Shown piece after piece: positions 3-39,737 of a stretch of 41,493 nucleotides of DNA. The stretch spans positions 1-41,493 of the IMG/VR virus record IMGVR_UViG_3300023172_000063, one strand, 5' to 3'. Made by a program: the position numbers and the translations under genes. Positions within the stretch are counted from its first letter, which is position 1. Each line of letters begins with the position of its first letter. The notes below the pieces were generated by a model. That model saw nothing but the letters and a program-made list of their open reading frames with translations, made no database searches and was not told the DNA's origin. Source of the stretch: a virus.

Positions 3-53
3 CCAAAAACCAACAGCTCTAAGCCACCCGGTGTTATTGTCGTAGGTGCATAA
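3..53 (+). CDS. C-terminal end of an upstream gene (partial)
   Basis: An open frame runs from the left edge to a TAA at 51-53 and encodes the last 16 residues of a protein ending P-P-G-V-I-V-V-G-A. The TAA overlaps the ATG of the next gene (TAATG), a junction type used repeatedly in this window. That junction is the main reason to treat the fragment as real. Too little is present to suggest a function. Confidence 0.4.
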   Translation, partial: PKTNSSKPPGVIVVGA

Positions 54-391
54 TGCAAGATGTGCATCACCTAGACATTCTGCTGTCAGAGGCCAAAAAC
101 GACGGCAAGCACTTGACCATGCGAGGCCGATTGGTGGACTGTCACAGCCAGGCATGTCTGGACGACTTACATGCGAGAATGGAAGACGCCAAGCGTACTC
201 GAGACCTATCCAGTACGAGATCAGACGAGAGAATATATTATAACGGCGTTCTGAGAGTCCTGCGCCGCAAAATTCGCGCTGTAGAAAAAGAACTGAGAAA
301 GAAGGAAGCACTGACCGAAACGCGACAGAGAATCACGCGCAGAACCGGTCGGTCTTCCATAAGAGCTATGCAGATGTCCGGCATCTTGTGA
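53..391 (+). CDS. Small basic protein of unknown function
   Basis: This 112-residue protein is rich in Arg and Lys, especially in its second half, where residues about 65-90 (VLRRKIRAVEKELRKKE) should form a charged helix. I do not recognise the family. The ATG at 53 overlaps the preceding TAA, and AGGTG at 44-48 is a weak ribosome binding site. Near the N-terminus it has LLSEAKND, resembling ILSEAKRD at the start of the 8712-9287 protein. That suggests a shared N-terminal peptide, but the match is short. It is followed seven bases later by 399-1721. Confidence 0.6.
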   Translation: MQDVHHLDILLSEAKNDGKHLTMRGRLVDCHSQACLDDLHARMEDAKRTRDLSSTRSDERIYYNGVLRVLRRKIRAVEKELRKKEALTETRQRITRRTGRSSIRAMQMSGIL

Positions 392-4026: not shown

Positions 4027-4216
4027 CACAAAAGTGCTTTTAAGCGCCCAGCAGCTTCAATCGCTGCGCAATGCACAGACGATCACCAGCGAAGAATATG
4101 CTTATGTTGCTGGCGATTTGGTAGTAGCAGAAAATGTGAAGTCAGGAGAAAAAAGAGTCTTGGGATACAAGGCTACCGTTTTGGCAGAGGGAAATAAGCG
4201 AGTCCTCAAGGGATGA
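4016..4216 (+). CDS. Small protein directly upstream of the chaperonin
   Basis: This 66-residue protein begins at the ATG at 4016, chosen because a strong AGGAGGA site lies just upstream inside the end of the FEN gene. The frame stays open upstream but would overlap FEN more deeply. The second half (VAGDLVVAENVKSGEKRVLGYKA, described here only in outline) looks like a short beta-rich segment. The last codons overlap the chaperonin ATG (ATGA). It is not recognisably GroES: it is too short and lacks a visible mobile loop. A partner role is only a positional guess. Confidence 0.65.
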   Translation: MQFDTKVLLSAQQLQSLRNAQTITSEEYAYVAGDLVVAENVKSGEKRVLGYKATVLAEGNKRVLKG

Positions 4217-5823
4217 GCTCTTCTCTGTTATTTGACGAAGAAGCTCGAGCCAAGCTGATTACCGGTGTTGAAAAGCTGGCTGCGGCTGTCAAAGTCACTC
4301 TGGGTCCTATGGGCAAAACCGTGGCAATCTGTCGCAACGGAGAAGTACCGCACTTGACCAAAGACGGCGTGACTGTAGCCAGTTCTGTTTTTCTAGAAGA
4401 TGCTTACGAAAATGTTGGTGCCAGCCTGGTACGTGAGGCAGCGCAACGCAGCGCTGCTGTGGCAGGAGATGGCACAACCACGTCGACTGTGCTGGCCAGC
4501 GAAATCATTCATAACGGCGATAAATTGTTAGCGGCTGGACACAGCGTTGTCGACGTGCTGGACGGCATGAGAGCCGCGGCGGAAGAAGTGACTAAAGAAC
4601 TTGAGTCAACGCGCGTCACAATTGGCGAGGACGAGCTTATCAATGTTGCAACCATTTCAGCCAACGGAGATCGCGACCTAGGTGAGATTATCAGCAGAGC
4701 AATTAATCGAGTCGGTGTTGATGGTGCTGTTTCAGTACAGGATGCAAAAGGTTATGATACCACATTAACCATTGTTGACGGCACTTATATCGACAGAGGA
4801 TATGAGTCGCCTTATTTTGTAACAGATACCGCAAAACAGGTCGCTGAGCTCGATTCTCCTGATGTGCTAGTGGTAAACGATGAGCTGACTGTTCTGGCGC
4901 CTCTGGTGCCTGCCCTGGAGCGCATTGCGGCATCGGGCGGCAGTCTGCTGATAGTTTGCAACGGTGTGAGTGGAGAAGCGCTTCAGGCACTGGTTCTGAA
5001 TCGCGTAAAAGCCGGCTTAAAAGTCTGCGTCATCAAGTCGCCGGAATTTGCTGGAGCTCGAGTCACAGCTCTGCAAGACCTGGCGGCTTTGGTTGGTGCC
5101 ACAGTGGTCACCGACGCAAAACAGGCACTGAAAGCTGAAGAGCTAGATGAAATACTAGGCAGCGTCAAAAAAGCGACTGTCACCAATCGCACCACGCTAC
5201 TTTTTGGCACGCAGCAAAATGACGACGTGCAGAGCCGCGCAAAATCCGCGCGAGAAGTTCTGGACGATCCTGCAATAGGCTCAGACGATAAAAAGATCGC
5301 AGAGAGGCGACTCAAGAGGCTCAGTGACGGCATTGCTGTCATTCAAGTCGGTGGGGCAACCGAGGCAGAAATGTTTGAGAGGCGCGATCGAGTCGACGAT
5401 GCTTTGCATGCGGCCCGAGCAGCTCTGAGAGAAGGGGTACAGCCGGGCGGCGGTGTAGCTCTGGCTCGAGCCAAAAAGCGCGCAGCAAAACAGTTCAAGC
5501 CTAAAAACTCTTACGGTATTGGGGCTCTTGCATTTCTAGACGCTTTGGAGTCGCCTCTGAGGCAGATTGCTGAAAACTGCGGAGTCTCTGCCGATTTGGT
5601 AGTACAAAAAATTAATCGTGTGGCTGTAAATTTCGGCTATGACGGTAAAAATAATAGATATGGAAACATGTTTGAACTTGGCATACTTGATCCACATGCA
5701 GTCGTTGTGTCTGCAGTGGAACATAGTTTGTCAGTTGCGTGTAATTTATTGTCAATTGGGTGTATAATAACAGAGGAATTCTCGAGTGAGAACAACGAAA
5801 TTGCCTACTTTAACAGTATTTAA
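4213..5823 (+). CDS. groEL: Phage-encoded GroEL-type chaperonin (HSP60)
   Basis: This 536-residue protein is close in length to bacterial GroEL. It shows the equatorial ATP site motifs TLGPMGKTV (29-37), DGVTVA (51-56) and GDGTTTSTVLA (from 85, with the catalytic-loop Asp at 86). It also has the apical DRGYESPYFVTD segment, and DALHAARAALREGVQPGGG containing the Asp equivalent to GroEL D398. GroEL folds proteins in an ATP-driven ring with GroES. Here the C-terminus ends without the Gly-Gly-Met tail, and no GroES gene is evident nearby. Phage chaperonins are known in some large phages and may fold capsid or tail proteins. The start overlaps the previous stop. Confidence 0.95.
   Translation: MSSSLLFDEEARAKLITGVEKLAAAVKVTLGPMGKTVAICRNGEVPHLTKDGVTVASSVFLEDAYENVGASLVREAAQRSAAVAGDGTTTSTVLASEIIHNGDKLLAAGHSVVDVLDGMRAAAEEVTKELESTRVTIGEDELINVATISANGDRDLGEIISRAINRVGVDGAVSVQDAKGYDTTLTIVDGTYIDRGYESPYFVTDTAKQVAELDSPDVLVVNDELTVLAPLVPALERIAASGGSLLIVCNGVSGEALQALVLNRVKAGLKVCVIKSPEFAGARVTALQDLAALVGATVVTDAKQALKAEELDEILGSVKKATVTNRTTLLFGTQQNDDVQSRAKSAREVLDDPAIGSDDKKIAERRLKRLSDGIAVIQVGGATEAEMFERRDRVDDALHAARAALREGVQPGGGVALARAKKRAAKQFKPKNSYGIGALAFLDALESPLRQIAENCGVSADLVVQKINRVAVNFGYDGKNNRYGNMFELGILDPHAVVVSAVEHSLSVACNLLSIGCIITEEFSSENNEIAYFNSI
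5739..5768 (+). promoter_or_regulatory. Candidate promoter, GTGTAAT-N17-TATAAT
   Basis: GTGTAAT lies at 5739-5745 and TATAAT at 5763-5768, separated by exactly 17 bases, inside the 3' end of the chaperonin gene. Transcription would start near 5775 and lead into the small gene at 5835 and the sigma factor. The same two boxes with the same spacer recur at 8007 and 15058. Confidence 0.6.
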
Positions 5824-6052: not shown

Positions 6053-6766
6053 ATGAAATCAACTTCATTTTCGTTGATTGATTCTATTGGCAAAACAAAG
6101 CTGCTTACGAAAGAAGAAGAACAAGAGCTTTCAAAGCGAATTGAAAAAGGAGACAAACGGGCGCGAGACAAGATGATCAAAGCCAATCTGCGCCTGGCAA
6201 TGAGTGTGGCCAAAAAGTACATCAACAAAGGCGTTGACCTAGAAGACCTTTTCCAAGAGTCTATCATTGGTCTGACGCATGCAGTTGATCGCTTTGACTG
6301 GACCAAGGGATTCAAGTTTTCCACCTATGCTTACTGGTGGATTCAGCAGTCAGTGCGTCAGTATCTGGCTGCTAACTGCGGCCCGATCGATCTGCCTTCT
6401 AACACTTTTTTCAAGCTGTATAAAATTTCACAGTTCGAAAAAGACTATCAGAAGCAGTTCGGTCGGCGTCCGACAGACAAAGAAGTGGCTAACATGTTCA
6501 ATACGACGACGAAGACGCTGGCATCGCTGCGACAGTCTGCTGCCTCTTCCGTTTCGCTTGATCAGCCGCGCTATACTAATTCAGATGATGCTGGTCTGGC
6601 ACCCTTGTCTGAAATGATCCCATCAGAAGATATTTCGGCAGAGGAAAAAATCGACGGTGATCGACTGCAGGCCAAGATTCAAGAGGCGCTGCAGACTCTG
6701 ACGGAGCGCGAAAAAATTATCATCAAAATGCGATTTGGCCTCGAAGAAGAGCAAGGAGATATTTAA
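6053..6766 (+). CDS. Sigma-70 family RNA polymerase sigma factor lacking region 4.2
   Basis: This 237-residue protein has region 1.2 (about 11-45) and a complete region 2 (about 40-108), with DLFQESIIGL, FDWTKGFKFSTYAYWW and IQQSVRQ, the core-binding and -10 melting parts. A region 3-like segment follows (about 113-172). Region 4.1 begins at LTEREKIIIKMRFGL (216-230), but the protein ends seven residues later. The helix-turn-helix of region 4.2 that reads the -35 box is therefore missing. The stop overlaps the next ATG (TAATG), and the following gene is unrelated, so this is not an obvious frameshift. T4 gp55, the late sigma factor, also lacks a standard region 4.2. A late-promoter role is inferred. 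Confidence 0.92.
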   Translation: MKSTSFSLIDSIGKTKLLTKEEEQELSKRIEKGDKRARDKMIKANLRLAMSVAKKYINKGVDLEDLFQESIIGLTHAVDRFDWTKGFKFSTYAYWWIQQSVRQYLAANCGPIDLPSNTFFKLYKISQFEKDYQKQFGRRPTDKEVANMFNTTTKTLASLRQSAASSVSLDQPRYTNSDDAGLAPLSEMIPSEDISAEEKIDGDRLQAKIQEALQTLTEREKIIIKMRFGLEEEQGDI

Positions 6767-8711: not shown

Positions 8712-9287
8712 ATGCACACCAATAAAAGAATTCTTTCTGAGGCCAAACGAGACTTGGAACTGGCCATTGTCAAATGTTTGTCTCACGCTCCCCTCCGCCC
8801 GGTGGAGCTTACTGAGCTTTTGGCCGTTAGCGAAGCGGATCTGATGCGAGATCACGGCTGCGATCTCTACATGGCTGAGCAGGTCAAGCAGCATGCCAAG
8901 AGAGAGCAGTACCGAATGAGAGCTCAGAACCACTTTACGAGGACAGAAGACACAAGCGATCTTTATCCTGAAAAGCCCTACACAAGAACTTCGCCCATCA
9001 ACGAATCGCACGAAGGCAGAATGCTGGACTACGGTCACACGGCTTCCGATTCGAGAGAGGGCAGAATGGCTCGTGGCGCTCTGAGAAATATTGCGGTCGA
9101 TGCTTACAGGCTCTATCAGCTGCTCAACGATGAAGACGACCTGCCGCAGTGGTGCGAGTATAAGATTGCTCAGGCGCAACTGATGATGAACTCGGTGCGT
9201 GAATACCTGGAGTACAAGTTGGAGTCCAAAGGCGAGGACATGCCTGGCGAGCTTGAAGTTTTTGTTGGAGGTGACTTTCATGAGTGA
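8712..9287 (+). CDS. Probable virion structural protein
   Basis: The start at 8712 is chosen over an in-frame ATG at 8619 because GAGGT lies at 8701-8705 and the upstream stretch overlaps the preceding gene. The 191-residue protein begins MHTNKRILSEAKRD, with L-S-E at 8-10. Residues about 110-165 form a helical segment (ALRNIAVDAYRLYQLLNDED, then LPQW and SVREYLEYKL) of a type I associate with small virion proteins of environmental myoviruses. That association is from memory, so the functional call is tentative. It sits directly before the Dps-like gene, overlapping it by eight bases. Confidence 0.65.
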   Translation: MHTNKRILSEAKRDLELAIVKCLSHAPLRPVELTELLAVSEADLMRDHGCDLYMAEQVKQHAKREQYRMRAQNHFTRTEDTSDLYPEKPYTRTSPINESHEGRMLDYGHTASDSREGRMARGALRNIAVDAYRLYQLLNDEDDLPQWCEYKIAQAQLMMNSVREYLEYKLESKGEDMPGELEVFVGGDFHE

Positions 9288-9846
9288 TCTGATTCGCGAA
9301 TGTCCAGCAGACGATGCTGTTGAAGCACAGCTGGTTGCCAAAGCGATAGGGTCGGTTAAACAGCCCGTCGACAATACACTGCTCTCCAGGAGGCTCAGCC
9401 AGTGGCTCGGCATGCTTCGCGGCATGCAGCTGTGGTTTCACGGTGCGCACCACGTCACACGTGGCGCTTCTTTCGCTGGAGACCATGTAGATATCTTTGG
9501 CAGAATTTACGTGGCCATACAGGACGAAATTGACGGTGCTGTGGAGAAAGCTGTTGGGGTCACCGGCGATGAAGGCATTGCATGTCCGATGCACATCACC
9601 AAGATGGCGCTGCAGGTTCTACAGAGCTATCCATCGCCCCCGGCCATTTCCTCGCTGGCCATGGCAGCAGTCGGCCTGGAGATCGAACGCAACTATGTGG
9701 AGCTCGTCGAGCAGATGTTTGCGGAACTGGAAGAGGCAGACATGCTCTCCCTTGGGCTCAATGATATGCTGGCTGCCTCGGCCAATGTGCACGAGGGACA
9801 CAGCTATTTGCTTCAACAACGCGTGAAGACAGAACTGGAGAACTAA
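9280..9846 (+). CDS. Dps/ferritin-like protein (putative)
   Basis: The start is the ATG at 9280, with GGAGGTGA just upstream. An upstream in-frame ATG at 9199 would lie deep in the previous gene. The 188-residue helical protein has a segment with WFHGAHHVTRG, SFAGDHVDIFGRIY and DEIDGAVEKAVG. This matches the first and second helices of Dps-like ferritins, where His, Asp and Glu form the iron site between subunits. Dps proteins oxidise ferrous iron with hydrogen peroxide and can coat DNA. The N-terminus is MSDLIRECP, close to the IIREC at the C-terminus of the next protein. The family call is moderate. Confidence 0.6.
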   Translation: MSDLIRECPADDAVEAQLVAKAIGSVKQPVDNTLLSRRLSQWLGMLRGMQLWFHGAHHVTRGASFAGDHVDIFGRIYVAIQDEIDGAVEKAVGVTGDEGIACPMHITKMALQVLQSYPSPPAISSLAMAAVGLEIERNYVELVEQMFAELEEADMLSLGLNDMLAASANVHEGHSYLLQQRVKTELEN

Positions 9847-9847
9847 A

Positions 9848-12800
9848 GTGGAATTAAAAACTGGTAAAGTATATCGCGTTATTCATTCAGGTAAACGTTC
9901 AGCTAGGCTTTGGGGTGACGGTGCATTATCAGTAGGCGGTTGGGAAGGCAAGCGCGATTTGCCAGTTGGAACAGAGTTGCGCTTTGTCGGAATAAAGCCG
10001 GGAGATTGGGGTCCTGATGAGCCAGTTTTTGAAGATGTTGCCACGGGCCAAAAGGGATATTTTTCTCCATCTTATGGCATAGGTGACCACCGCGGCATGC
10101 CTGGTATGCCTTTAAAAGGGTGGTTAAGCGAAAATAAAGTAAAATCCAATTATCAATGTGGAGCTTTTTTAACTCAAGAACTTTTTTTTGAAAGAAAAGC
10201 TTTAATACAAAAGCATGCTAAAAATAGAAAATCGCTATCTTTGCTTTTTGAATCGTCTCAAAAAAGATTAATCTTAGAAGAAAAAATTGAATTAATTCAA
10301 TTAAACGAAGTTTTGCATCCGTTTTACTTGGCTTATCGCTCCACAAAAAACGATCTCTATTCCAGAATTGTTAAAAAGACTATAGCAGAACTTAAAGAAA
10401 GCGGTCTGATAGAATCAGAATCGCCTCTGCTAACAGAGGGTTTTTGGGATTCTGTTCAAGCCGGCATTGGTTCTTTTGCCGGCGGAATTGACAATATTCT
10501 CAAAAAAATTAAGCTTAAAAAAGAACCCAAAGGATGGGAAGAAGCGCAACGAATATTTGCAAAAATTTCAGAAAAAGAAGGGCACGACACGGTAAAAGAT
10601 CTGGTTAAGGCCATAGAGCAAGAAACTCAAGAATTAGAAACAGGATTGGGTTCTAAAGAAAAAGATCGAAAATTTCCGGTCAATAAACATGCTAATGTTT
10701 TCTTTTCAGGCGTCAATACCATCGCATCGACTTACGATTCAATTGTGGCTGCTACACAAAAGAAGTCAGGTCAAGACGGCTACTTGCCTCCCGAAGTTGC
10801 CAATGACATTATCGAGCAACTTCGTATTGTCGTGCAAAAATATATGGCTGACACTGAACGTGAAAAGGGAGGCATGTACGCTTCATTTGGAGGCGGAGAT
10901 CGCATAGAAGGCGATATAGATCCGGATGCTCACGGCATGTCATCCGAAATGGTTGAAAGTAAAAATTTAAATTTAAATCTTCTTTTGGAAAAAGATTGGG
11001 CAGCCGAAGTAGAAAAAATAAACGCTGAAGAAGAGGCCGAAAAACAACGGAATTCTGGCGAAGAAATTGATCCGGACGCTGAATATGAAAAAATTATGCG
11101 TGGTAAATCTTCGCCTGTTTTTCAAAGAATGACCAGTCTTAAGGCACCGGTGGTTATTGCCGGTACTGGCGCGGCTTTGGGCGCTTTAGGTTGGATTGCT
11201 AATCAACCATGGTTTCACGATTTTGTTTTGGACACTTTAGATATACCCAAAACAACTGATATAACGGATACTTCAACAAAAGAAGTTATGGAAAAAATGA
11301 AAACTTCTTACTTCGAAGCAAATCCGGAAATGAAAAATTTGGGAAGTGTTAAAGCTGGTGGCGGAGGTTTAACCCAGCAAGTTTCTAGGATTATGGGGCT
11401 AGACTCTGGTGAAAATTTACTTGGAGCTGATGCCTCTATAGAAGATTTAAAAAATGCAGCTCTTAAAGTTGGTGGTGGTGATTTAGACACCGGGTTGAAA
11501 AATATTGCCTCTCTCACGCAAGGCCGCGGCAATCCTGGAAAAGCTTTTGAGTGGATGAAGACAGCGATTAATAACCCCGAGGATATTGGAGTCAAAAATA
11601 TAGGGCAGGACGGTTCCCTTTGGAATCTTTTTTCTGGCGGCACAGCAAGGGGCGGCGATGTTGCAGCAAGACTTAAATTTCCCGGAAAAGATGTTTTTAG
11701 CGTTGGCGTCGGAAATAAATTAAATCAATTTGTGATGAATGCAGCGTTAAAAACTATCACAAAATCGGTACCTAAAAAAATAACCGTTAAAACTTTAAAA
11801 AAAGTTGGATCTGCAAAAGCTGCATCAACTGTTGCATTAATGACAGGCGCTGCGCCAGTACTTGCCGGCATTGGAATTTCAACAGTTGCCGCCGGCGGTA
11901 CTTTAGCATTGATTAGAAAGCGCGCAAAGTCGGCATCTCGAATGGGGACTTTAAATACGCTGTTGCAACAATTAAATTTAATTGACACTCCGCCGGCAGA
12001 AAATGTCGCTCCAGAACCCGAATCTGAATCAAATGTAACAATTACGCTTTATGATGAAGAAGGTGTCAATGAAAATTTAAAACGTTTGTATAATCATCTT
12101 TTTGAACGAACTGAAATCGAAATCACCGGACTCAGCGGCACGGAAGAATTGGAAAAAACGGGTGGAGTTGCTAAATTTACAGTTAATTCAGTTTCTTCAG
12201 ACGTACCACCCAAAATTACAAAAGCCAGTCAAATTCCATATGTTATTCAGGCAATCAAAGAAAAACTTCCTGATTTTGATTTAACGGCGCCAAATGTCAA
12301 TGTAATGATTGTCGACAAAAGAAAGAAGGTAAAAATTCCAACTGCGCCGCAGCGATCAGAAATTCCACCGGTTGCAGTTGAGCCGGCCCAGATTGCCAAA
12401 GGCGATAATGCGGTGGTTGTTTTTGACCCTGAAGGCGCCAAGGTATTTCGAATTTTAAAAAAGAAAACGTTTCAAAAATACGCTTCCGATGCCCGACGAT
12501 CGGGCGATAAAGACGCGCCGGAATTTGCTGACCGTCATGCTAGATACGATTCAATATTGGCCAAATTAAAAGCTGACGGTGTATTTGTTAATTCTGATGG
12601 CTTAGAGTCTGAGCTGGCAAAAATTTCCAGCGGTGTTGATGGCGATCAATATCGAATTTCTTATACGCGAACAAGAGGCGATAAAAAAAGAAAATCCTCC
12701 ACTGGAGGATTTACTAATGCCGGCCCAGTTAAAGACATTTCCGATATTCGTAAAAATATCAAAGGTGCCCCGGGGGCTAAACGGCCAAAAAATCAATCAA

Positions 12801-13084
12801 AAATGACCGTTATTTACCTGGTTGGTTCCAATACTATTGCTGCCTTAAAGGCGGCTGGACTGAAGGACGACAAAGCAAAATCTTTAGTGAAAAATATTAT
12901 TTTTCGCTGGGCTAAAAGTGGTAATCGACCCAAAATAGCTGACCTGAACATTGACGACGAAAATATTGAAAAAGCTTTAAAGTCGGCTAGTTTAGCCGAG
13001 GCTTTTGCATATCAAAAAAATAAAATTGCAATAGTTGATGTAAATCCCAAATTTTTTGCAAAAATAATTCGTGAATGCAGCTGA
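9848..13084 (+). CDS. Giant probable virion protein with two hydrophobic segments
   Basis: This 1078-residue protein starts at a GTG with GGAG seven bases upstream. Residues 1-95 look like a small beta domain. A long Lys/Glu-rich helical region follows, including an amphipathic FWDSVQAGIGSFAGGIDNIL. Two Gly/Ala-rich hydrophobic segments lie near 433-452 (APVVIAGTGAALGALGWIAN) and 662-690. Late beta regions and the C-terminal AKIIRECS complete it. The last element resembles the short helix shared by several neighbours. Codons are A/T-rich. No catalytic motif is seen. A head-internal or DNA-ejection protein that can enter a membrane is plausible from size, segments and neighbours, but this is inference. 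Confidence 0.75.
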   Translation: MELKTGKVYRVIHSGKRSARLWGDGALSVGGWEGKRDLPVGTELRFVGIKPGDWGPDEPVFEDVATGQKGYFSPSYGIGDHRGMPGMPLKGWLSENKVKSNYQCGAFLTQELFFERKALIQKHAKNRKSLSLLFESSQKRLILEEKIELIQLNEVLHPFYLAYRSTKNDLYSRIVKKTIAELKESGLIESESPLLTEGFWDSVQAGIGSFAGGIDNILKKIKLKKEPKGWEEAQRIFAKISEKEGHDTVKDLVKAIEQETQELETGLGSKEKDRKFPVNKHANVFFSGVNTIASTYDSIVAATQKKSGQDGYLPPEVANDIIEQLRIVVQKYMADTEREKGGMYASFGGGDRIEGDIDPDAHGMSSEMVESKNLNLNLLLEKDWAAEVEKINAEEEAEKQRNSGEEIDPDAEYEKIMRGKSSPVFQRMTSLKAPVVIAGTGAALGALGWIANQPWFHDFVLDTLDIPKTTDITDTSTKEVMEKMKTSYFEANPEMKNLGSVKAGGGGLTQQVSRIMGLDSGENLLGADASIEDLKNAALKVGGGDLDTGLKNIASLTQGRGNPGKAFEWMKTAINNPEDIGVKNIGQDGSLWNLFSGGTARGGDVAARLKFPGKDVFSVGVGNKLNQFVMNAALKTITKSVPKKITVKTLKKVGSAKAASTVALMTGAAPVLAGIGISTVAAGGTLALIRKRAKSASRMGTLNTLLQQLNLIDTPPAENVAPEPESESNVTITLYDEEGVNENLKRLYNHLFERTEIEITGLSGTEELEKTGGVAKFTVNSVSSDVPPKITKASQIPYVIQAIKEKLPDFDLTAPNVNVMIVDKRKKVKIPTAPQRSEIPPVAVEPAQIAKGDNAVVVFDPEGAKVFRILKKKTFQKYASDARRSGDKDAPEFADRHARYDSILAKLKADGVFVNSDGLESELAKISSGVDGDQYRISYTRTRGDKKRKSSTGGFTNAGPVKDISDIRKNIKGAPGAKRPKNQSKMTVIYLVGSNTIAALKAAGLKDDKAKSLVKNIIFRWAKSGNRPKIADLNIDDENIEKALKSASLAEAFAYQKNKIAIVDVNPKFFAKIIRECS

Positions 13085-13143
13085 AGAAATGTCTGAGGGT
13101 TGGATATAGAACGAATCACGCCGCAGGGTAACCAAGCAGGGGA

Positions 13144-13197
13144 ATGGAGGTAGTACTCCTCATCCTTTTCGACAAAAAGCTAGAGGTGGAGCAATGA
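13144..13197 (+). other. Possible 17-codon upstream ORF
   Basis: In the 109-base gap before 13194, an ATG at 13144 opens a 17-codon frame encoding MEVVLLILFDKKLEVEQ. It ends in a TGA overlapping the next ATG (ATGA). The AGGGG upstream is too close to be a standard ribosome binding site. It may be a coupled leader peptide or chance. The gap also has GGAGGTAGTACTCC, a four-pair hairpin. Confidence 0.2.
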
Positions 13198-13481
13198 AGA
13201 TCACAAAACAACAACTAAGAAGAATTATTCAAGAAGAAAAAGCCCGAATCTTATCGGAACAACCCATGACAAGGTTTCAACTTCGGAGTCATATCCGCGA
13301 CAGAGAACAGTCTCTTCGTGATCGCGCGGATAGAATTTTAAGTCGTGGTATGGCGCTTCCTGCTGAAGGTCAGCTTTGGAATAAAATGTCTGGTGCTCAT
13401 GAGCTTATGAACGACGCTATGGCAGCACTTGATCAGTTTGAGGCGGCTTTACAAGCATTAGAAGATGCTTCTGGTTATTGA
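13194..13481 (+). CDS. Small helical protein with putative capsid-targeting peptide
   Basis: This 95-residue protein begins MKITKQQLRRIIQEE, with I-Q-E at 12-14 and L-S-E at 20-22. T4 internal proteins are directed into the prohead by a short N-terminal helix that is cut by the gp21 protease after (L/I)-x-E. The layout here is the same, and the 13871 protein begins with an aligned peptide. The remainder is charged helix with no enzyme motif. The ribosome binding site AGAGGTGGAG is strong. An internal head-protein role is inferred. Confidence 0.65.
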   Translation: MKITKQQLRRIIQEEKARILSEQPMTRFQLRSHIRDREQSLRDRADRILSRGMALPAEGQLWNKMSGAHELMNDAMAALDQFEAALQALEDASGY

Positions 13482-13484
13482 TAG

Positions 13485-13874
13485 ATGAGAATCGATGCGC
13501 CGCTTAACATGCCTTATCGGCTGTCGGCCCAACCTTCAGGGTCGACACAGCGCATCGAAGAATCTCAGAATCAACCGGTTCAATCAAATCAGGTCGCGCA
13601 GAAAGAAGAGCCTGCAGCAAATCAACCAACTCAGCTCGATGGCCTGAGAAACATTAGCACGCAGGGCTTTTTGGAACTGAAGACGTCCGCAGTTTCCGGC
13701 GAGTTTGCTGTCGATGATACCATTCAAAAGCTGAGTGAGCAACTGGAAGAGATGGCCTCCTTCGTTGATACCTTCAGAAAACTGACCGAGTTGGTGGATC
13801 CTAAGCGCATCGAGCAGCTAGTGATTCAGAAGACGCTAGAGACGATGAACGAGGTTGCCGAGGGCAATAAGTGA
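13485..13874 (+). CDS. Unknown protein with Gln-rich N-terminus and helical C-terminus
   Basis: This 129-residue protein has a low-complexity, Gln/Ser/Pro-rich first half (about 14-50), then helices containing KLSEQLEEMASFVDTFRKL, probably an oligomerising coiled coil. It starts three bases after the previous stop and overlaps the next GTG by four bases. No family recognised. Context suggests a small virion or scaffold component. Confidence 0.6.
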   Translation: MRIDAPLNMPYRLSAQPSGSTQRIEESQNQPVQSNQVAQKEEPAANQPTQLDGLRNISTQGFLELKTSAVSGEFAVDDTIQKLSEQLEEMASFVDTFRKLTELVDPKRIEQLVIQKTLETMNEVAEGNK

Positions 13875-14086
13875 AAGTTAGCCTAAGGCAAATTCGAAAT
13901 CTTATTCGTGAGCAGGCCATGTATCTCACGCCTGAAGACCTTGCAAGACGCCGCGGCGGAGTGCCTATGGGCATTTCTCAAAAACACTGGCAAAAACTGA
14001 CAGACACGACCAGCATGCAGGAAAGTGCTGAAAAACAACTTCGGCTATTCGTTGAAGAATTTATCAAGGGATCAAGCCTTACTTAA
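13871..14086 (+). CDS. Small protein with putative capsid-targeting peptide
   Basis: This 71-residue protein starts at a GTG overlapping the previous TGA. Its first 15 residues, MKVSLRQIRNLIREQ, align without gaps to MKITKQQLRRIIQEE of the 13194 protein. Identities are at M1, K2, Q7, R9, I12 and E14, with conservative changes elsewhere, and I-R-E is a T4 gp21-like cleavage motif. The rest is short and featureless apart from an Arg cluster near 26-28. Its 3' end overlaps the convergent minus-strand gene by eight bases. Confidence 0.6.
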   Translation: MKVSLRQIRNLIREQAMYLTPEDLARRRGGVPMGISQKHWQKLTDTTSMQESAEKQLRLFVEEFIKGSSLT

Positions 14087-14339
14087 AGACTCTCTCTTTT
14101 GCCGTGTCAAAGAGATTGCGCAGAAAGGACTTCCGAATCTTGAGAAGCCTTTCGAACTTGACCTGCTGCCGAACATCCGTGTACAGTGCGGTCGGCTTCT
14201 TGATCTCGCCGTCTATCAGAGTGTCAGAGAAGTCGTAGAACTTTGATCGAGCAGGTAGTTTGCCACTGGAAACACCTGAAAATCCCGTCAAGAAAAAAAT
14301 CACAGTAGACAGCGCAGCCAACTTTGTCTTATTAATCAC
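14079..14339 (-). CDS. Small predicted exported protein
   Basis: This 86-residue protein is read from a GTG at 14339 that overlaps the TAG of the upstream minus-strand gene, indicating a real coupled pair. Residues 1-26 form a typical signal peptide: MINKTKLAAL, then a hydrophobic core (STVIFFLTGFSGVSSG). The mature part is about 60 residues, ending in an Arg/Lys-rich helix (KIRKSFLRNLF). There is no clear lipobox Cys. A periplasmic or envelope location is likely in a Gram-negative host. Function unknown. Confidence 0.55.
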   Translation of the reverse strand: MINKTKLAALSTVIFFLTGFSGVSSGKLPARSKFYDFSDTLIDGEIKKPTALYTDVRQQVKFERLLKIRKSFLRNLFDTAKERVFK

Positions 14340-15037
14340 TATTTTTTCCTATGCTTCTTGACTTGGTTCCACTGCGCAGAATCGACCTTTCTTGCCTTAC
14401 CGCCTTTGAGGAAGGAGTTGACTCTTCCCATGGCCCAAGAGTGGGCGCTCTGCCCCGGCCGTGCTCCGGAGGTGTAAAATGCGCCCATACCTTTTCTATA
14501 GACTGCTTTAAGTGCCCCCAAAGGCGCATTGTGCTTCTTTGCTTTTTTCTTCAGAGCTGCATCAACTTTCTTACTGATCTTTTTTGGCTTCTTTTTCTTA
14601 GCCTCTTCCACGGCGATTTCTGTCAACAAGTCATCTAACAAATCATCTAAAACAGATTCTGAGTACTTACTCTTTTTTGGTTTACCGTAAGTGTTCTTTT
14701 TAGCGATTTCTTCTTCATACTTGTCTCGAGCCTTGCGAGCAGCTTCTTTTTCTTTTTCTGTCTTGGCATTTTTGTATCGATCGGTAAGTTTTCGAAGCTT
14801 GTCGCCTCTTTTGGTGCCCTTCTTAGCTTTGTAACTTGCCGGCAGCTCATCAGACTCAGCAAATAGATCAGGGTGCTTCTTGCGAATTTCTTTATCAGAC
14901 ATTCCAGAAGCTTTCATTCTGGCAATTTTAACGTCATCAAAATCATTTTTGCCGTCTTTGTTTTGGTCTTTGTCTTCCTGCAGAGCCTCGCGCAGCAGGT
15001 CGTCAAGCGATTCATTGAGAACGTCTTCTAGCTTCAT
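14339..15037 (-). CDS. DUF5824-like phage protein with N-terminal (L/I)xE peptide
   Basis: This 232-residue minus-strand protein has GGAG eight bases before its ATG. The N-terminus MKLEDVLNESLDDLLREAL has the length and L-x-E pattern of T4 capsid-targeting peptides (L7-N8-E9). A DKDQNKDGKNDFDD segment (about 22-36) resembles an EF-hand-like Asp/Asn loop. The middle is Lys-rich. The last 60 residues (YRKGMGAFYTSGARPGQ, then HSWAMGRVNSFLKGG) match what I recall of the phage DUF5824 family. Its function is unknown. It is one of few genes opposing the general direction of transcription. Confidence 0.75.
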   Translation of the reverse strand: MKLEDVLNESLDDLLREALQEDKDQNKDGKNDFDDVKIARMKASGMSDKEIRKKHPDLFAESDELPASYKAKKGTKRGDKLRKLTDRYKNAKTEKEKEAARKARDKYEEEIAKKNTYGKPKKSKYSESVLDDLLDDLLTEIAVEEAKKKKPKKISKKVDAALKKKAKKHNAPLGALKAVYRKGMGAFYTSGARPGQSAHSWAMGRVNSFLKGGKARKVDSAQWNQVKKHRKK

Positions 15038-15057
15038 TTATAAATCTCCGATGTTAC

Positions 15058-15087
15058 GTGTAATTATGGTCCAAAGTGTGATAAAAT
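15058..15087 (+). promoter_or_regulatory. Candidate promoter, GTGTAAT-N17-TAAAAT
   Basis: GTGTAAT (15058-15064) and TAAAAT (15082-15087) are 17 bases apart in the gap between divergent genes. Transcription would start about 15094, 20 bases before the UvdE start codon. Confidence 0.6.
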
Positions 15088-15113
15088 CTAATAAACTGCC
15101 CATGGAGAAAGCA

Positions 15114-16052
15114 ATGACAAACCGATACGGTTACTGCTGCATCAATCTTACGCTGCAAAAATCCCGCGGCATCATGACCAATCGCACGATGCGTCGTAAG
15201 ACATTTGACGCTAAGGGCCTGGGTTATGTATCAGAGCTGTCCCTAAAGAACACCACGGACTTAAAAGAGATTATTCAGTGGAATTCTGAGAACGGTTTCG
15301 AAGTGTTTCGCATCACTTCCACCATGTTTCCCTGGGCCAGCGAATACGACTGGAGCGACCTGCCGGATATTGATGCCATCCGAGAGAACTTGCGACATGC
15401 CGGCCAATTGGCACGAGACACAGGACAGCGGCTCTCGTTTCACCCGGGGCCTTTCAATTGCTTGGCATCTCCCAAAGAAGACGTCGTTCTCAACTGTGTG
15501 AAGGATCTTTCGATTCATGGCGATCAGATGGACATGCTCGGCATGCCACGAACACATGAAGCCAAGATCAACATCCACATCGGCGCAGCTTACGGCGATC
15601 GAGAAAAGGCCCTGGACACCTGGTGCCGCAATTTCGAGAGGCTGCCCGAAAATGTGCGCTGTCGGCTGACGGTAGAAAACGACGACAGGGCCAATCTCTA
15701 CTCCACCAAGATGCTTTACGAATCGGTCTACAAGCGCCTGGGAATTCCCATCGTTTTTGATTCTCACCACGCTGCGTGCGGACCTCAGGATTCGACCTAC
15801 GAGGAAGCGTTTCTGATGGCTTACGAGACATGGCCCAAAGGCATTCGGCCTGTCTGCCACCACTCCAACAGCCGCAAAAAGTACGAGGATTCATCCTGTA
15901 GATCCTTGGCAGCACACTCAGACTACTACTACGAGCCTTTCGATTCGTGTGGCAAATCGGTCGATGTTGCCATGGAAGCCAAGGCCAAGGAGCTGGCCGT
16001 CTTTGATTACCTCCAAAAATTTGAGGGCGGACCGGAACGTTTGGTTGCATAA
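15114..16052 (+). CDS. uvsE: UV-damage endonuclease UvdE/UvsE
   Basis: The ATG at 15114 is used because GGAG lies six bases upstream (15104-15107). The open frame extends upstream only as the antisense of the previous gene. The 312-residue protein has UVDE family hallmarks: RYGYCCIN at the start, RLSFHPGPFN, INIHIGAAYGDREKAL, LTVENDD, IVFDSHH and HHSNSRK followed by AHSDYY. These supply the His, Asp and Glu ligands of the metal cluster in its TIM barrel. The enzyme nicks DNA 5' of UV photoproducts in a photolyase-independent pathway. A promoter of the GTGTAAT type precedes it, so it is likely expressed early or in the middle period. Confidence 0.93.
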   Translation: MTNRYGYCCINLTLQKSRGIMTNRTMRRKTFDAKGLGYVSELSLKNTTDLKEIIQWNSENGFEVFRITSTMFPWASEYDWSDLPDIDAIRENLRHAGQLARDTGQRLSFHPGPFNCLASPKEDVVLNCVKDLSIHGDQMDMLGMPRTHEAKINIHIGAAYGDREKALDTWCRNFERLPENVRCRLTVENDDRANLYSTKMLYESVYKRLGIPIVFDSHHAACGPQDSTYEEAFLMAYETWPKGIRPVCHHSNSRKKYEDSSCRSLAAHSDYYYEPFDSCGKSVDVAMEAKAKELAVFDYLQKFEGGPERLVA

Positions 16053-16065
16053 AGATCTGGCGGGG

Positions 16066-16073
16066 GATATTTA
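16066..16073 (+). promoter_or_regulatory. Candidate late-type promoter box GATATTTA
   Basis: GATATTTA follows a G-run in the gap after uvsE and ends 27 bases before the ATG at 16101. It heads a three-gene run (16101, 16412, 17059) that includes the superoxide dismutase. It matches the boxes at 8684 and 34709. Confidence 0.45.
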
Positions 16074-16100
16074 CCTGCAGTAACCTGTTAGGAGAAAACC

Positions 16101-16412
16101 ATGCCCCCTATCAAAGAATCCAAACTGAGAGCGATGATTCGCACCGAGCTTAAAAAACGTTTGCTTCAAGAACAAGATGATGCTTCAATTGAAGGTCAAC
16201 AGCTTCAAAAGTTAAAGCAGTTAGCAAATCAGATCGGTGCTGACGAGCCTCAAAAATTGATTGCTGCTCTTAAAAAAGATCGACGCAATACAGCACAGAA
16301 TGAGTTGGTTGCTGATTTTTTTATTAAACTGATGGACAAAGGTCAAAATGTTGATTTGACAAAGCTCAAACAAGCTTTGGCTGCAGCTCCAGACGAAGAA
16401 ACGGAAGCATAA
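16101..16412 (+). CDS. Small helical protein with putative capsid-targeting peptide
   Basis: This 103-residue protein begins PPIKESKLRAMIRTELKK after Met, with L22-Q23-E24 a little further on (LLQEQ). The KLRAMIR part aligns with LRRIIQ and IRNLIR of the 13194 and 13871 proteins. The rest is Gln/Lys/Ala-rich helix with an acidic end. TTAGGAG provides the ribosome binding site. The stop overlaps the ATG of the dismutase gene (TAATG), so the two are coupled. A small internal head protein or chaperone for the dismutase are both possible. Confidence 0.65.
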   Translation: MPPIKESKLRAMIRTELKKRLLQEQDDASIEGQQLQKLKQLANQIGADEPQKLIAALKKDRRNTAQNELVADFFIKLMDKGQNVDLTKLKQALAAAPDEETEA

Positions 16413-17062
16413 TGAAAAAAAGAAAGTCGGGTCAGACTTACGACGATGCCACGTCCAGCAGTCTCTTTCTAGATCGAATCGGCAACGAAAACGAGTGGGA
16501 GCCCGAATATCTTCAGAAGATCAGTGACTACTACAAAAAAATGGGATTGATTCGGGAGTCCTACGGTCATCTCTTTGAGCAGTCTGAAGAGGGCGATTTT
16601 GTGGATGCCATGGCAATTTTGCGACGACTGACAAAAGATGGAGTGGGAGAAGCTGTCGGCTCGGCTCAGTTTGAACAGACCGACCTAGGTCTCATAGTGA
16701 AACTGAAGGCTGAAGGAGTACCACCGGGCGAACATGGCATTCACATCCATGAAAATCCAGATGTGGGCCCGGGAAAAAAAGACGGCAAGATCCAGCCTGG
16801 AATGGCTGCCGGAGGACACTATGATCCAATGGGAACAGGCAAGCATCTGGGACCTTATGGCGATGGACACTTGGGCGATCTGCCTCGAGCTTATGCACTC
16901 GAAGATGGCACAATCGACGCCATTCTTTTGGCGCCTAGGCTAACTCTAGAAGACGTAAGAGGCAGGTCCATTATTGTGCACTCTGGCGGCGATAACTATT
17001 CTTACAAGCCAGATCCGATGGGTGGCGGCAAATCTCGAATGCTAGGAGGTGTGATAGAATGA
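16412..17062 (+). CDS. sodC: Cu/Zn superoxide dismutase with phage-type N-terminal extension
   Basis: Of 216 residues, about 63-216 form a Cu/Zn superoxide dismutase domain. All seven metal ligands are visible: H111 and H113 in HGIHIHE, H136 in AGGHYDP, H145, H153 and D156 in KHLGPYGDGHLGDLP, and H190 in SIIVHSGGDN. The enzyme converts superoxide to hydrogen peroxide and oxygen. The protein contains no cysteine at all, so the conserved intrasubunit disulfide is absent. Instead of the usual periplasmic signal peptide it has a 62-residue charged extension with KKMGLIRES (I47-R48-E49), like the putative capsid-targeting peptides of its neighbours. Genes on both sides overlap it. Confidence 0.93.
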   Translation: MKKRKSGQTYDDATSSSLFLDRIGNENEWEPEYLQKISDYYKKMGLIRESYGHLFEQSEEGDFVDAMAILRRLTKDGVGEAVGSAQFEQTDLGLIVKLKAEGVPPGEHGIHIHENPDVGPGKKDGKIQPGMAAGGHYDPMGTGKHLGPYGDGHLGDLPRAYALEDGTIDAILLAPRLTLEDVRGRSIIVHSGGDNYSYKPDPMGGGKSRMLGGVIE

Positions 17063-17925
17063 AACTTTTTGAAGCACCCCTTGATTCTTTTTTGTACAAG
17101 GACCTGACCTCGACTCTTTACTCTTCGGGCTTTTGGCTGCACGACAATGAGGATCGATTTGGGCGAGAGGCTCTGACAGAATCAGCTGATCTTCTTAAAA
17201 AGACACTGCAGAAATTTTTTAAAAAGCACGGTCTAAACATCAAAGTGGTGGCCGAAAGCTTGAGCGAGGAAGATCACGGTGTCGAGATGCAGTCGGATGA
17301 AAAACCCAATCGATATCTGATCGGCGCCGAAGCGCGCATGTCGACTCGCAGTAAGGGCCAGATCTATCTCAAGATCGTGATGGCTGAAGAAGGTTTTGAT
17401 CCGGAGCTGATCAACGCCAAAAAAGTGGTGGAAGACGTGGCCATCAAGGTACGTCACGAACTGATTCATCTGCGGCAGTATGATTCTTTGGCAAGAGATA
17501 AGGGTATCACCAAATACCAAGCCAAAAAGCAGTATGAAAAGTGGAACGATATTCCAGAGGAAACTGCTCCGGTCACTGATTATCTCAAGTCTCGCATTGA
17601 AATCGACGCTTTCGGCCACGAGTTTGCCGAGCGATTGGCGCAGGAATTTGGCCTGTCTGCCGCGCAGCAAATGGTGGCGAGAAAGGGAGACGTCTCTGAG
17701 CTGGCAAGGCTGGCCGATGAAATTGATCTAGGCTACAACTTTCCGCAGTATTTCAGAGACCATCCAGACTCAGAGTTCACCGAGCGTCTTCGCAAGAAGA
17801 TCAAAAAATACCTGCGTCGTTTTGGCGAGCAGGGCATATATGAGAATGCGCGACGCGCAGAGATAAAAAGCGCCAAAAGGCAGCTGAAAAAAATCATTAG
17901 AGAGATCATTAGATCAGGGCGCTAA
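17059..17925 (+). CDS. Putative HExxH metallopeptidase with C-terminal IIRE helix
   Basis: This 288-residue protein has a zincin signature H133-E134-L-I-H137 in VRHELIHLRQYDS. Possible third ligands are E181, D183 or H187 in IEIDAFGHE. The first 110 residues show no recognised domain. The C-terminal 20 residues, IKSAKRQLKKIIREIIRSGR, align with the N-terminal peptide of the 13194 protein (K-x-x-K-x-Q-L-(K/R)-(K/R)-I-I-x-E). The same helix thus appears at the opposite end of a different protein. The gene overlaps the dismutase gene by four bases. Peptidase activity is inferred from the motif. The substrate is unknown. Confidence 0.65.
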   Translation: MKLFEAPLDSFLYKDLTSTLYSSGFWLHDNEDRFGREALTESADLLKKTLQKFFKKHGLNIKVVAESLSEEDHGVEMQSDEKPNRYLIGAEARMSTRSKGQIYLKIVMAEEGFDPELINAKKVVEDVAIKVRHELIHLRQYDSLARDKGITKYQAKKQYEKWNDIPEETAPVTDYLKSRIEIDAFGHEFAERLAQEFGLSAAQQMVARKGDVSELARLADEIDLGYNFPQYFRDHPDSEFTERLRKKIKKYLRRFGEQGIYENARRAEIKSAKRQLKKIIREIIRSGR

Positions 17926-28819: not shown

Positions 28820-29485
28820 ATGGCGCGCAGAACTTCTATTATCGATGATAACCAGCAAGCTCTGATTGAGGACGGCGGATATCTGCGCGTGTCTCCTGCA
28901 CCATTTCCGCCAGATGACGAAAGAGATATTCAGAAGGTCTTCCGTGATTTTTTGACTCTGGATGGGGATGGCACAACATCAAGCATGCTTGTTGACGGCT
29001 CCACAACTTCGCAGCTTTTTTATATTCAAGCCGTGCCAAATCTGGACATTTATATTACCAGCGTATCTTTTTTGATAGCTGCAACTGGCGTGTCACTTGG
29101 CAATGATTTTTTGGGCATTGGCTCGGCATTGACTAACGGGGTGCGAATATATTACGAAGACAACAATGGCGAAACAAATATTGCCACGGATCTGATCGTT
29201 AACTTCAGTTTTATTCGGTTGTGCCAGGGTAATCCAGCCTTTGGCGATGCCGCTAATGCTTTTTTGGCTCCGTCAATTTCAGGTAGCGGTAAGAACGTCT
29301 CTGACGGTTATTTGCCTGTTTTGGATTTCAAAGGCGTATTTGGCTTTCAGTACGGTTTGAAGTTGGCCAAAAATACCAATCACCGCCTGGTCGTCGAAAT
29401 CAATGACGATCTCACAGCAGGCACTGTTGGCGCCGGCGCTCAGTTCGATGCAATTGCTTACGGCTTTGAGCGCAAGGAAGGCTGA
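28820..29485 (+). CDS. Virion-type beta protein, possible distant relative of the paralogues
   Basis: This 221-residue protein has a preceding GAGGTAATA ribosome binding site. It begins with a different sequence (IIDDNQQALIEDGGYLRVSP). It keeps a similar plan, with FYIQAVPNLDIYITSVSFLI near 68-87 in the place of the ENNEDKD strand and KNTNHRLVVEINDDL near 187-201 in the place of the KGxS strand. Relationship to the four upstream paralogues is likely by size, position and pattern but not proved by clear identity. No enzyme motif seen. Confidence 0.6.
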   Translation: MARRTSIIDDNQQALIEDGGYLRVSPAPFPPDDERDIQKVFRDFLTLDGDGTTSSMLVDGSTTSQLFYIQAVPNLDIYITSVSFLIAATGVSLGNDFLGIGSALTNGVRIYYEDNNGETNIATDLIVNFSFIRLCQGNPAFGDAANAFLAPSISGSGKNVSDGYLPVLDFKGVFGFQYGLKLAKNTNHRLVVEINDDLTAGTVGAGAQFDAIAYGFERKEG

Positions 29486-29486
29486 T

Positions 29487-30110
29487 TTGGAATTTTATCC
29501 TCCCACCAAGATCAAAGTGGCGCAATCTCCTGGAAAGGGCCTAGGTGTATTTGCCACCGAAGCTATTTCGGCCGGAGAAGTCATCGAGTGCACGCCTATT
29601 CACTCTCTCAGTTCAGAAGACGAATCCCTCCGCGACTATCAGTTCTGCTATCCCAAGTCTCTAAATTATCGAGAACAGGTGCTGGCTTGGGGCTACGGCT
29701 CGCTCTACAATCACAGTTCCGAGCCCAATTGCTGCTGGAGAAACCATCCTGAATTTCGAGGTTTTGAGTATTATGCGCTACGCGATATTCACTCGGGTGA
29801 AGAGCTGTTGATAAACTACGGCGGCACTCCATATTGGCAAAATGGTCGCGATCACGTGGAAGTCGTGGAGCCCGAAAGAAGCTACGCCTATTTCAGTCTT
29901 TCTCCCGACGACATGGCTAAACAGCTTTCCGAAGCCGGCATTCCCTGCTACAATCTGATTTCCAATCCGATGGATTTTGATTATTATAATGTCAAGCAAT
30001 TTCCTACGCTTTTAGTTTTGGACGAAAACAAAAATGTGATAGGGCAAACATCCGGCCGCGGAAAGATTCTGGCCGTGATTAACCGCAAAAAACTTCTGGA
30101 GTTTTCATGA
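29487..30110 (+). CDS. SET-domain protein with thioredoxin-like C-terminal part
   Basis: The start is a TTG at 29487, two bases after the previous stop, with AAGGAAGG just upstream. The frame is open further upstream but lies inside the previous gene. The 207-residue product has SET motifs: GKGLGVFATEAISAGE (16-31), YNHSSEPNC (74-82) and GEELLINYG (104-112). These bind S-adenosylmethionine and form the lysine channel in protein lysine methyltransferases. Residues about 136-205 resemble the second half of a thioredoxin fold, with QFPTLLVLDENKNVIG (171-186, containing the usual cis-Pro position). It overlaps the next gene by ATGA. A virion-protein substrate is a guess. Confidence 0.8.
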   Translation: MEFYPPTKIKVAQSPGKGLGVFATEAISAGEVIECTPIHSLSSEDESLRDYQFCYPKSLNYREQVLAWGYGSLYNHSSEPNCCWRNHPEFRGFEYYALRDIHSGEELLINYGGTPYWQNGRDHVEVVEPERSYAYFSLSPDDMAKQLSEAGIPCYNLISNPMDFDYYNVKQFPTLLVLDENKNVIGQTSGRGKILAVINRKKLLEFS

Positions 30111-38699: not shown

Positions 38700-39737
38700 G
38701 TGAACAAGGTTCTGCTTGAATATGTTTGGTTAGATGGGTACAAGACGCCCAATTTGCGCAGCAAAATTAAAGTAATAAATGCCCACAAAGACAGTGGAAA
38801 GCCCACGGGCGGATGGAATGGCACCGCACCTGACTGGAACTTTGATGGCTCCTCTACGCGTCAGGCTCCTGGAGATAATTCCGAAAGAATTCTAAAGCCG
38901 GTTCGATACTACCCTTACGACAAGACCAATACACACTTGATTGTGCTATGCGAAGTCTTTAATCCGGACGGTACTCCTCATGAATCCAACTATCGTGCTA
39001 AGCTGCGTGAGAATCAGGATTTTGCCGATGGTCAAGCATTTTGGTGGGGATTTGAGCAGGAATATTTTCTGACCAAAGATCGCAAGCCGCTTGGTTTTCC
39101 TGAGGGAGGCTATCCAGGTCCGCAAGGCCTCTATTACTGCGGTGTTGGTGGCAATCAGGTCAAAGGTCGTAAGGTTGTAGAGGAACATCTGCACAAATGT
39201 CTCGAGATGGGTATAGAGCTGACAGGCATCAATGCCGAGGTTGCCGTGGGCCAGTGGGAGTTTCAGTGTTTTGGAGATGACACACTCAAAGCATGTGACG
39301 ATCTTTGGATCAGCAGATATCTGCTTTATCGTATTGCAGAGTCACACGGACTGGATGCCGATATCAGGCCCAAGCCGGTCAAAGGCGACTGGAACGGTTC
39401 TGGCTGTCACACCAATTTTTCCAACGGCATTATGCGAGCCGGCAACGAAAAACACTTCAAGCAGGTTCTCAAGTCGCTAGAAAATCGGCATTTTGAACAC
39501 GTCGATGCTTATGGGGAAGATAATGATCAGCGGCTGACAGGCCTGCACGAAACGCAGCACATTTCGAGATTTAGTTGGGGCGTGGCCGATCGCGGTGCAT
39601 CAATTCGGGTGCCGGCTGATACTGCCAAAAAGTGGACAGGTTATCTTGAAGATCGTCGACCAGCATCAAACTGCGATCCTTATAAGGTCGCCAACTTAAT
39701 CGTTGAAGCTGTCAAGGTTTGCAATCGTGAAAAATGA
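38700..39737 (+). CDS. glnII: Type II (eukaryote-like) glutamine synthetase
   Basis: This 345-residue protein starts at a GTG with AGGAG upstream. It is the length of GSII, shorter than the roughly 470 residues of GSI. Motifs run in order: EYVWLDG (7-13), FDGSSTRQAPGDNS (48-61), FEQEYF (118-123), NAEVAVGQWEFQ (178-189), GDWNGSGCHTNFS (229-241), RLTGLHET (278-285), RGASIRVP (298-305) and EDRRPASNCDPY (317-328). These hold the metal, ammonia and ATP site residues. The enzyme makes glutamine from glutamate, ammonia and ATP. In a phage it is likely an auxiliary metabolic gene supplying nitrogen for nucleotides. It overlaps thyX by 11 bases. Confidence 0.95.
   Translation: MNKVLLEYVWLDGYKTPNLRSKIKVINAHKDSGKPTGGWNGTAPDWNFDGSSTRQAPGDNSERILKPVRYYPYDKTNTHLIVLCEVFNPDGTPHESNYRAKLRENQDFADGQAFWWGFEQEYFLTKDRKPLGFPEGGYPGPQGLYYCGVGGNQVKGRKVVEEHLHKCLEMGIELTGINAEVAVGQWEFQCFGDDTLKACDDLWISRYLLYRIAESHGLDADIRPKPVKGDWNGSGCHTNFSNGIMRAGNEKHFKQVLKSLENRHFEHVDAYGEDNDQRLTGLHETQHISRFSWGVADRGASIRVPADTAKKWTGYLEDRRPASNCDPYKVANLIVEAVKVCNREK

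Follow-up and report, generated by a model that had tools for sequence, protein, structure and literature searches.

The stretch of DNA analysed here, hereafter the window (positions 1 to 41,493 of virus record IMGVR_UViG_3300023172_000063; 41.5 kb), is a fragment of the genome of a T4-like myovirus, and several of its proteins begin with a short leader of a kind that recurs in its relatives. With a probability of about 0.8 on the evidence of sequence, we regard these N-terminal peptides as propeptides that target proteins to the capsid and can be exchanged for one another, used by a large group of T4-like phages that are uncultured, and they appear to be best read as an expanded and diversified counterpart of the T4 internal-protein propeptide system. 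In T4, gp21 cuts after the motif L/I-X-E, the internal-protein propeptides of 10–19 residues target the core, and such a capsid-targeting sequence (CTS) is sufficient to package foreign proteins (PMC9026906). In the phages considered here, a leader of ~14–22 residues, probably helical (our guess from its sequence), precedes otherwise unrelated cargo. While the head is being assembled, the leader would dock its cargo on the scaffold and core proteins that make up the prohead core, a gp21-type S77 protease would cut after (I/L)-x-E, and the mature cargo may then stay in the head and be ejected with the DNA.

A preliminary description of this DNA had proposed a portable docking helix, akin to those of the T4 internal proteins and Alt and cut after (L/I)-x-E, at the N-terminus of some proteins and the C-terminus of others. 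For the N-terminal copies, which proved far more widespread than that description showed, the proposal is strongly supported by the sequences, namely by the restriction of the leader to N-termini, the S77 protease and gp23-type capsid protein in relatives, the drop of conservation at L-x-E, and the exchange of leaders on homologous cargo.

An exchangeable N-terminal leader

The best-defined form, the class A leader, has the consensus MK(I/V)xKxQLxxIIxE and begins hundreds of otherwise unrelated small proteins of uncultured, mostly marine T4-like phages. In a viral collection, the DNA pattern for MK[ILMV]xKxQL[KR]xIIxEE occurred in up to five copies within 13 kb among the matches listed. From 120 loci (1.05 Mb in total), recruited with an ATG-based strict DNA pattern, we obtained 195 protein matches to K[ILMV]xKxQL[KR]xIIxEE, 191 of them after ATG, four after GTG and none internal; because the loci had been recruited with ATG, placement is tested without bias by the non-ATG matches alone. 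Five genomes (G008, G004, G006, G011 and G009) were read whole. Five proteomes (1,366 proteins) were scanned with a core profile covering residues 2–15 of the class A leader, besides which a second profile covered 22 residues. At a core score of at least 16, there were 59 N-terminal, eight internal and one C-terminal match, against 0.05, 0.2 and 0, respectively, in shuffled proteins, so that the end-restricted enrichment suggested beforehand was indeed found at N-termini. Counted at a core score of at least 12, class A leaders numbered 21, 26, 6, 10 and 33 in G008, G004, G006, G011 and G009, respectively, and the larger genomes carry ~9–37 tagged genes each.

The preliminary description had cautioned that chance must be excluded for so short a motif. 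The caution was apt for the short core, as the IIxE DNA pattern shows no enrichment within the window (8 occurrences versus 8.2 expected), and single weak members in the window, such as the leader at 9280, may still be chance resemblances. For class A as a whole, nevertheless, matches by chance to a short common helix are scarcely credible, being contradicted by the placement, the profile scores against shuffles, the calls of leader classes (624 in real proteins versus one in 3,887 shuffled proteins) and the rarity of the leader in cells. Among 84,980 bacterial and archaeal species, the strict class A pattern was found in seven stretches on five contigs of metagenome-assembled genomes (MAGs), with several copies each, and an S77 protease was matched in two of the four class A-bearing MAGs tested (a match per MAG, not to the contig). 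One such contig, NHDW01000006.1 (306 kb; loci L269, L272 and L273), binned in a Methylococcaceae MAG, carries at least seven class A leaders; it probably represents the genome of a large phage that was wrongly assigned to the bacterium. The 22-residue class A consensus gave no tblastn match in cultured phages, and a literature text search with the motif letters found no paper. The first 45 bases of the leader exist in 179 distinct DNA versions in which synonymous codons vary freely; selection thus acts at the protein level, and a leader functioning as nucleotide sequence was ruled out.

Among 181 class A sequences, the information content is at background level beyond residue 22, and 111 of the sequences have an L-x-E that begins at residue 19 or 20. 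Similarly, L/I/F-x-E begins at position 20 in 83 of 338 non-redundant tagged proteins, compared with ~4–5 per position downstream. The constant I12-x-E14 of class A is itself a gp21-type site, and class A leaders therefore have two predicted cuts, after E14 and after E22. The propeptide of the capsid protein in the tagged viruses ends ELLRE/S, QLLKE/A or QIVSE/A (a slash marks a join or predicted cut), where T4 gp23 has FLTE/A.

Two further leaders, class B (MKLLxENWRxYLxE) and class D (MKLLREYIRxLLxE), also have a glutamate mostly at residue 14. One cargo family bears all three classes: class A as MKITKLQLRRIIAE/AIDLDIEKGDVIL, joined at IIAE; class B as MKLLLENWRKYMKE/NIDLDIKVGDVLL, joined at YMKE; and class D as MKHLREYIRQILLE/SISLDVDVGDVIL, joined at ILLE. 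In ungapped comparison, the members share 3–5 of 13 residues before the join and 15–20 of 26 after it. This exchange on homologous cargo is our strongest evidence for a common function of unlike leaders and for E14 as their end. It also contradicts the view that the tagged proteins all belong to a single family of paralogues with a slowly evolving N-terminus. Full-length homology does occur between some tagged neighbours (the window protein from 13194 and that of locus L093 are 40% identical over 96 residues), and for 126 of 419 tagged cargo queries a homologue that is itself tagged was found; the 338 non-redundant proteins, however, range from 60 to 553 residues and only about one-third have a homologue beyond the leader, and common descent of this sort is highly improbable. 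Leaders were also seen inside open reading frames (ORFs), between two cargo domains (EIFNNWRGYLKE/MIDLDIEV and ENVLRKYVRQLLKE/DPM; L228:11943-13007 in G006 and L257 in G009), an arrangement that suggests in-frame fusions which a protease would split.

A gp21-type S77 protease was found in 22 of 30 tagged records, a gp23-type capsid protein in 21 of 30, and both in all ten tagged records of at least 170 kb. In each of the five genomes examined, two to four leader-bearing genes lie within a head cluster of 18–20 kb; flanked by the genes for portal, protease and capsid protein, they take the place of gp67 and gp68 in T4. Two head-cluster proteins (L102:1334-3394 and L196:6405-8543) combine a class B-like N-terminus (LLTENWRKFV) and a C-terminal RWQQLAGI in one chain, and the one of these two that belongs to G029 directly follows the protease.

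As for the cargo, 120 longer class A proteins yielded six Pfam families in all, one being L,D-transpeptidase, and among the cargo of classes B and D are a guanylate-kinase-like protein and a weakly HAD-like protein. Even with the HExxH protein described below, recognisable enzymes are few and make up a minority of the recognisable cargo. The earlier suggestion that the helix loads enzymes, superoxide dismutase (SOD) included, is thus supported for a minority of the cargo, and the SOD of the window bears a leader module different from class A.

The shared N-terminus might instead be a docking helix for a partner unrelated to the prohead, for example a membrane or the machinery by which the phage transcribes or replicates its DNA, with (I/L)-x-E being part of the helix rather than a cut site. 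Many tagged genes do cluster far from the head genes (~270–284 kb in G009 and ~238–241 kb in G008), and nearly all cargo, as the Pfam count above indicates, is of unassigned function. Yet a second conserved L-x-E at residues 20–22 with the drop of conservation there, the exact exchange of unlike leaders at E14 and the tagged genes beside the protease would not be expected of a mere docking helix, and we consider this alternative distinctly unlikely.

Several points do weigh against the capsid-targeting interpretation. The 30 motif-bearing records were recruited by the tag itself, and their association with the S77 protease is hence a consistency check rather than a measured enrichment. Gene starts come from our own simple caller. 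For 63 of the 419 tagged cargo queries there is also a homologue whose called start leaves it with no leader, in some cases through a wrong start, which indicates that the leader is not obligatory on every cargo. The leaders of the window other than that at 13194 are divergent, and the S77 protease of the window virus is unseen, because its 76-kb contig lacks the head cluster. This contig, IMGVR_UViG_3300023117_002343 (G001, 75.7 kb), represents the same virus as the window, and its extra 34 kb were read too; a profile search of the window and the G001 contig gave no match to PF03420 (gp21-type protease), and no terminase-portal-protease-capsid cluster was seen when both were read. The prohead protease that the preliminary description had proposed to look for was accordingly found in relatives and not on the contigs of this virus.

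Leader-bearing proteins of the window

The features assigned to the window are as follows.

53..91, plus strand: leader MQDVHHLDILLSE/A of a 112-residue protein (53-391), whose C-terminal tag, SSIRAMQMSGIL, is degenerate; from G004 and G009 homologues
9280..9300, plus strand: putative short leader MSDLIRE/C of a 188-residue protein (9280-9846); G009 homologue MDRKINE/CPADDAVEA, 69% identity
13037..13084, plus strand: C-terminus PKFFAKIIRE/CS of a 1078-residue protein (starting at 9848), whose homologues continue NHAANELGRWQKLAGIR; the BLASTP alignment stops at E1076
13194..13259, plus strand: class A leader MKITKQQLRRIIQE/EKARILSE/ of a 95-residue protein (13194-13481); core score 38.6, 22-residue profile 44.7, tagged homologues
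13871..13912, plus strand: leader MKVSLRQIRNLIRE/Q of a 71-residue protein (13871-14086, GTG start); core score 16.6
14975..15037, minus strand: leader MKLEDVLNESLDDLLREALQE/D of a 232-residue protein (14339-15037), missed in the preliminary description; from homologue comparison
16101..16172, plus strand: divergent leader MPPIKESKLRAMIRTELKKRLLQE/Q of a 103-residue protein (16101-16412); core score 10.5, syntenic G009 homologue MPAITEEKLRDSVRKYLVENNLIE/QDE
16412..16558, plus strand: module C leader, SOD residues 1-49, ending DYYKKMGLIRE/S; from the match to a G009 N-terminus
16559..17062, plus strand: Cu/Zn superoxide dismutase cargo, Sod_Cu at residues 83-215 (PF00080, 9.9e-26)
17059..17925, plus strand: HExxH (RHELIH) metallopeptidase-like cargo with a residual leader MKLFE/A and a C-terminal IKSAKRQLKKIIREIIRSGR that resembles class A; from homologues

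Every peptide quoted previously was found at the gene to which it had been assigned, and the segments MKITKQQLRRIIQEE (13194) and MKVSLRQIRNLIREQ (13871, GTG start) do align without gaps. The wider set of similar segments was retained in part: those at 13194, 13871, 16101 and the C-terminus of 17059 (core score 25.1) fit the profile, while the C-terminus of the 9848 protein (2.0), the segment at 16412 (-6.9) and that at 9280 (-11.1) do not, but are supported in other ways. Taken with the homologues, the capsid-targeting reading fits the proteins from 13194, 13871 and 16101 and, probably, that from 9280 and that of the minus-strand gene 14339-15037.

The 13194 gene is preceded by GGTGGAG, which resembles a ribosome-binding site. 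The peptide MSDLIREC sits within a longer ORF (GTG at 9199), but the start at 9280 is favoured because the G009 homologue begins at the corresponding place; the window protein reads MSDLIRE/CPADDAVEA, and in a further homologue, L016, the leader is of class A (score 33). The G004 homologue of the minus-strand protein has a class A-like leader, MLLTESSLRRIIRRALIE/AKDQN, with the same join point. Among the homologues of the 53-391 protein, that of G004 starts MKTLRETIRRIILE/T and that of G009 ends IRESSRMMKLAGIL. A Pfam match of the 16101 protein to Ntox1 (E 0.0013) was below the cut-off and was taken as spurious.

On the G001 contig, in the interval between ~7 kb and 0.2 kb upstream of the first base of the window, there is a run of proteins with N-terminal (L/I)xE sites, for instance LPKRQALNE/AYVVEPKKF, kept in G008 as SKKILNE/AYVLQPKKY; the run includes one RWQLLAGLK C-terminus. 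These are candidate head-core genes of the window virus. Elsewhere in the window, we noticed genes for a GroEL-like chaperonin (4213-5823; 73% identity to the G009 chaperonin), a sigma-70-type factor (6053-6766), a SET-domain protein (29403-30110; PF00856, 2.4e-18) with, by eye, a thioredoxin-like tail, which is unusual for a phage, a glutamine synthetase (38700-39737) and ThyX (39703-40461).

Superoxide dismutase, the metallopeptidase-like protein and C-terminal tags

KKMGLIRES corresponds to residues 42–50 of the SOD ORF. Residues 3–49 of the SOD are 66% identical to the N-terminus of the G009 metallopeptidase-like protein and the match stops exactly at LIRE49, indicating that KKMGLIRES is the end of a different leader, here called class C. 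As this leader adjoins the metallopeptidase in G009, the SOD of the window sits between the leader and that cargo. No Sod_Cu domain was found in the other 29 records searched, and a search of viral contigs for further relatives of the SOD or the metallopeptidase gave G009 and the window virus itself and no others. The SOD (16412-17062) has no evident signal peptide, and its nearest phage relatives in the collection are the lambdoid sodC genes of Salmonella prophages. By eye, it appears to lack both usual SodC disulfide cysteines, showing ENPDVG and RMLGGV at the places where SodC has cysteine.

The metallopeptidase-like protein (17059) matched no Pfam family above the cut-off, and its AlphaFold model (predicted local distance difference test score 66.8) gave no fold match in PDB by Foldseek at E<=0.001. 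A search of the collected records added three homologues, and HELxH is invariant in the five sequences aligned. The homologues carry leaders of class D (G005 and G008), class B (G006) and the longer class C (G009).

IIREIIRSGR of the 17059 protein and AKIIRECS of the 9848 protein were confirmed as true C-termini; the class A motif as a C-terminal tag was not borne out, being found in one of the 1,366 proteins (at a score of at least 12, one versus 0.35 in shuffles). That the C-terminal KxxKRQLKKIIRE of 17059 is a working packaging tag is unlikely, though not far-fetched: its score is not approached by the C-termini of shuffled proteins, none of which gets to 16, but the copy is the sole case in the five proteomes and is absent from the homologues, which end before it. 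At the homologous position, G006 has a class B leader in the same frame and, behind it, a second cargo, and in G009 the gene next to the metallopeptidase-like gene starts MRITKRQLRRIIREA. The copy is likeliest to be a remnant of a fused second leader, given the in-frame arrangement in G006. As for the 1078-residue protein, homologues in G007 and G024 share the same continuation past IIRE1076, while the window protein stops after CS; the end of the homologue alignment at IIRE1076 suggests that AKIIRECS is where a C-terminal tag, since lost by the window virus, is predicted to have been cut.

A C-terminal tag distinct from class A is nevertheless real. The motif [RK][WFML]xxLAG[ILVM] lies in the last 12 residues in 29 of 35 occurrences, and an RWxxLAGI-type tag ends gp22-like scaffolds (including those of two cultured phages) and 12 other proteins. 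A hydrophobic-x-E stands at most 14 residues before the tag in 12 of 12 non-scaffolds versus four of 16 scaffolds, by our own classification, with a background of 21–24%. Processing by gp21 at C-termini is in itself not new, as T4 Alt offers a precedent for C-terminal propeptides removed by gp21 (PMC9026906). Unlike in T4 Alt, non-scaffold proteins here share the C-terminal RWxxLAGI with the scaffold, usually just after L-x-E. It is attractive to speculate, at slightly less than even odds, that prohead cargo bears two kinds of address label, the exchangeable N-terminal leaders and a C-terminal (L/I)xE/S..RWxxLAGI copied from the scaffold C-terminus, and that the cargo (in this virus with the SOD among it, through a captured 49-residue leader) would be docked like scaffold, released when the prohead protease cuts, and delivered into the next host by injection.

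Known propeptide systems and what the leaders may mean

The leaders resemble the T4 CTS of IPI-IPIII and Alt, which is cut by gp21 (PMC9026906; PMC3012670). Both are short N-terminal propeptides (~10–20 residues) ending in (L/I)-x-E, both are portable and precede mature proteins that are unrelated and have only the leader in common, and both occur with an S77 protease and a gp23 head. The T4 leader MKTYQEFIAE/A is of another sequence; its general form agrees, and it is too short for a comparison of homology. Different from T4, the phages described here have at least three exchangeable classes, and are mostly uncultured and known from sequence alone. In phiKZ and SPN3US, many head-protein propeptides are cut after x-x-E by a distant gp21 homologue, and two SPN3US paralogues have an identical N-terminus (PMC5694885); those propeptides are mostly longer than 100 residues, with the motif S/A-x-E in phiKZ, compared with 14–22 residues and I/L-x-E here. 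A cultured relative, Flavobacterium phage immuto (NC_055915), has a like order of gp23 and S77 genes and a scaffold ending RWQKLAGIIK, and its gp080 begins MKKSQLRQIIKEALD, with MKKSQLRQIIKE/A as a putative leader. The leaders of immuto are few and divergent compared with those of the tagged phages, and class A is not found nearly identical in cultured phages; no proteomics paper on phage immuto was found in the literature.

Little is known of what large environmental phages carry in their heads and inject. Should the leaders prove to be packaging labels, sequence would suffice to predict the head cargo of many uncultured phages, and for hundreds of small hypothetical proteins ejection from the head would become a likely role. 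Anyone wishing to load a protein into a phage head could, moreover, use the leaders as tags that already exist. The virus of the window, for its part, would deliver a superoxide dismutase and a metallopeptidase-like protein to its host at infection.

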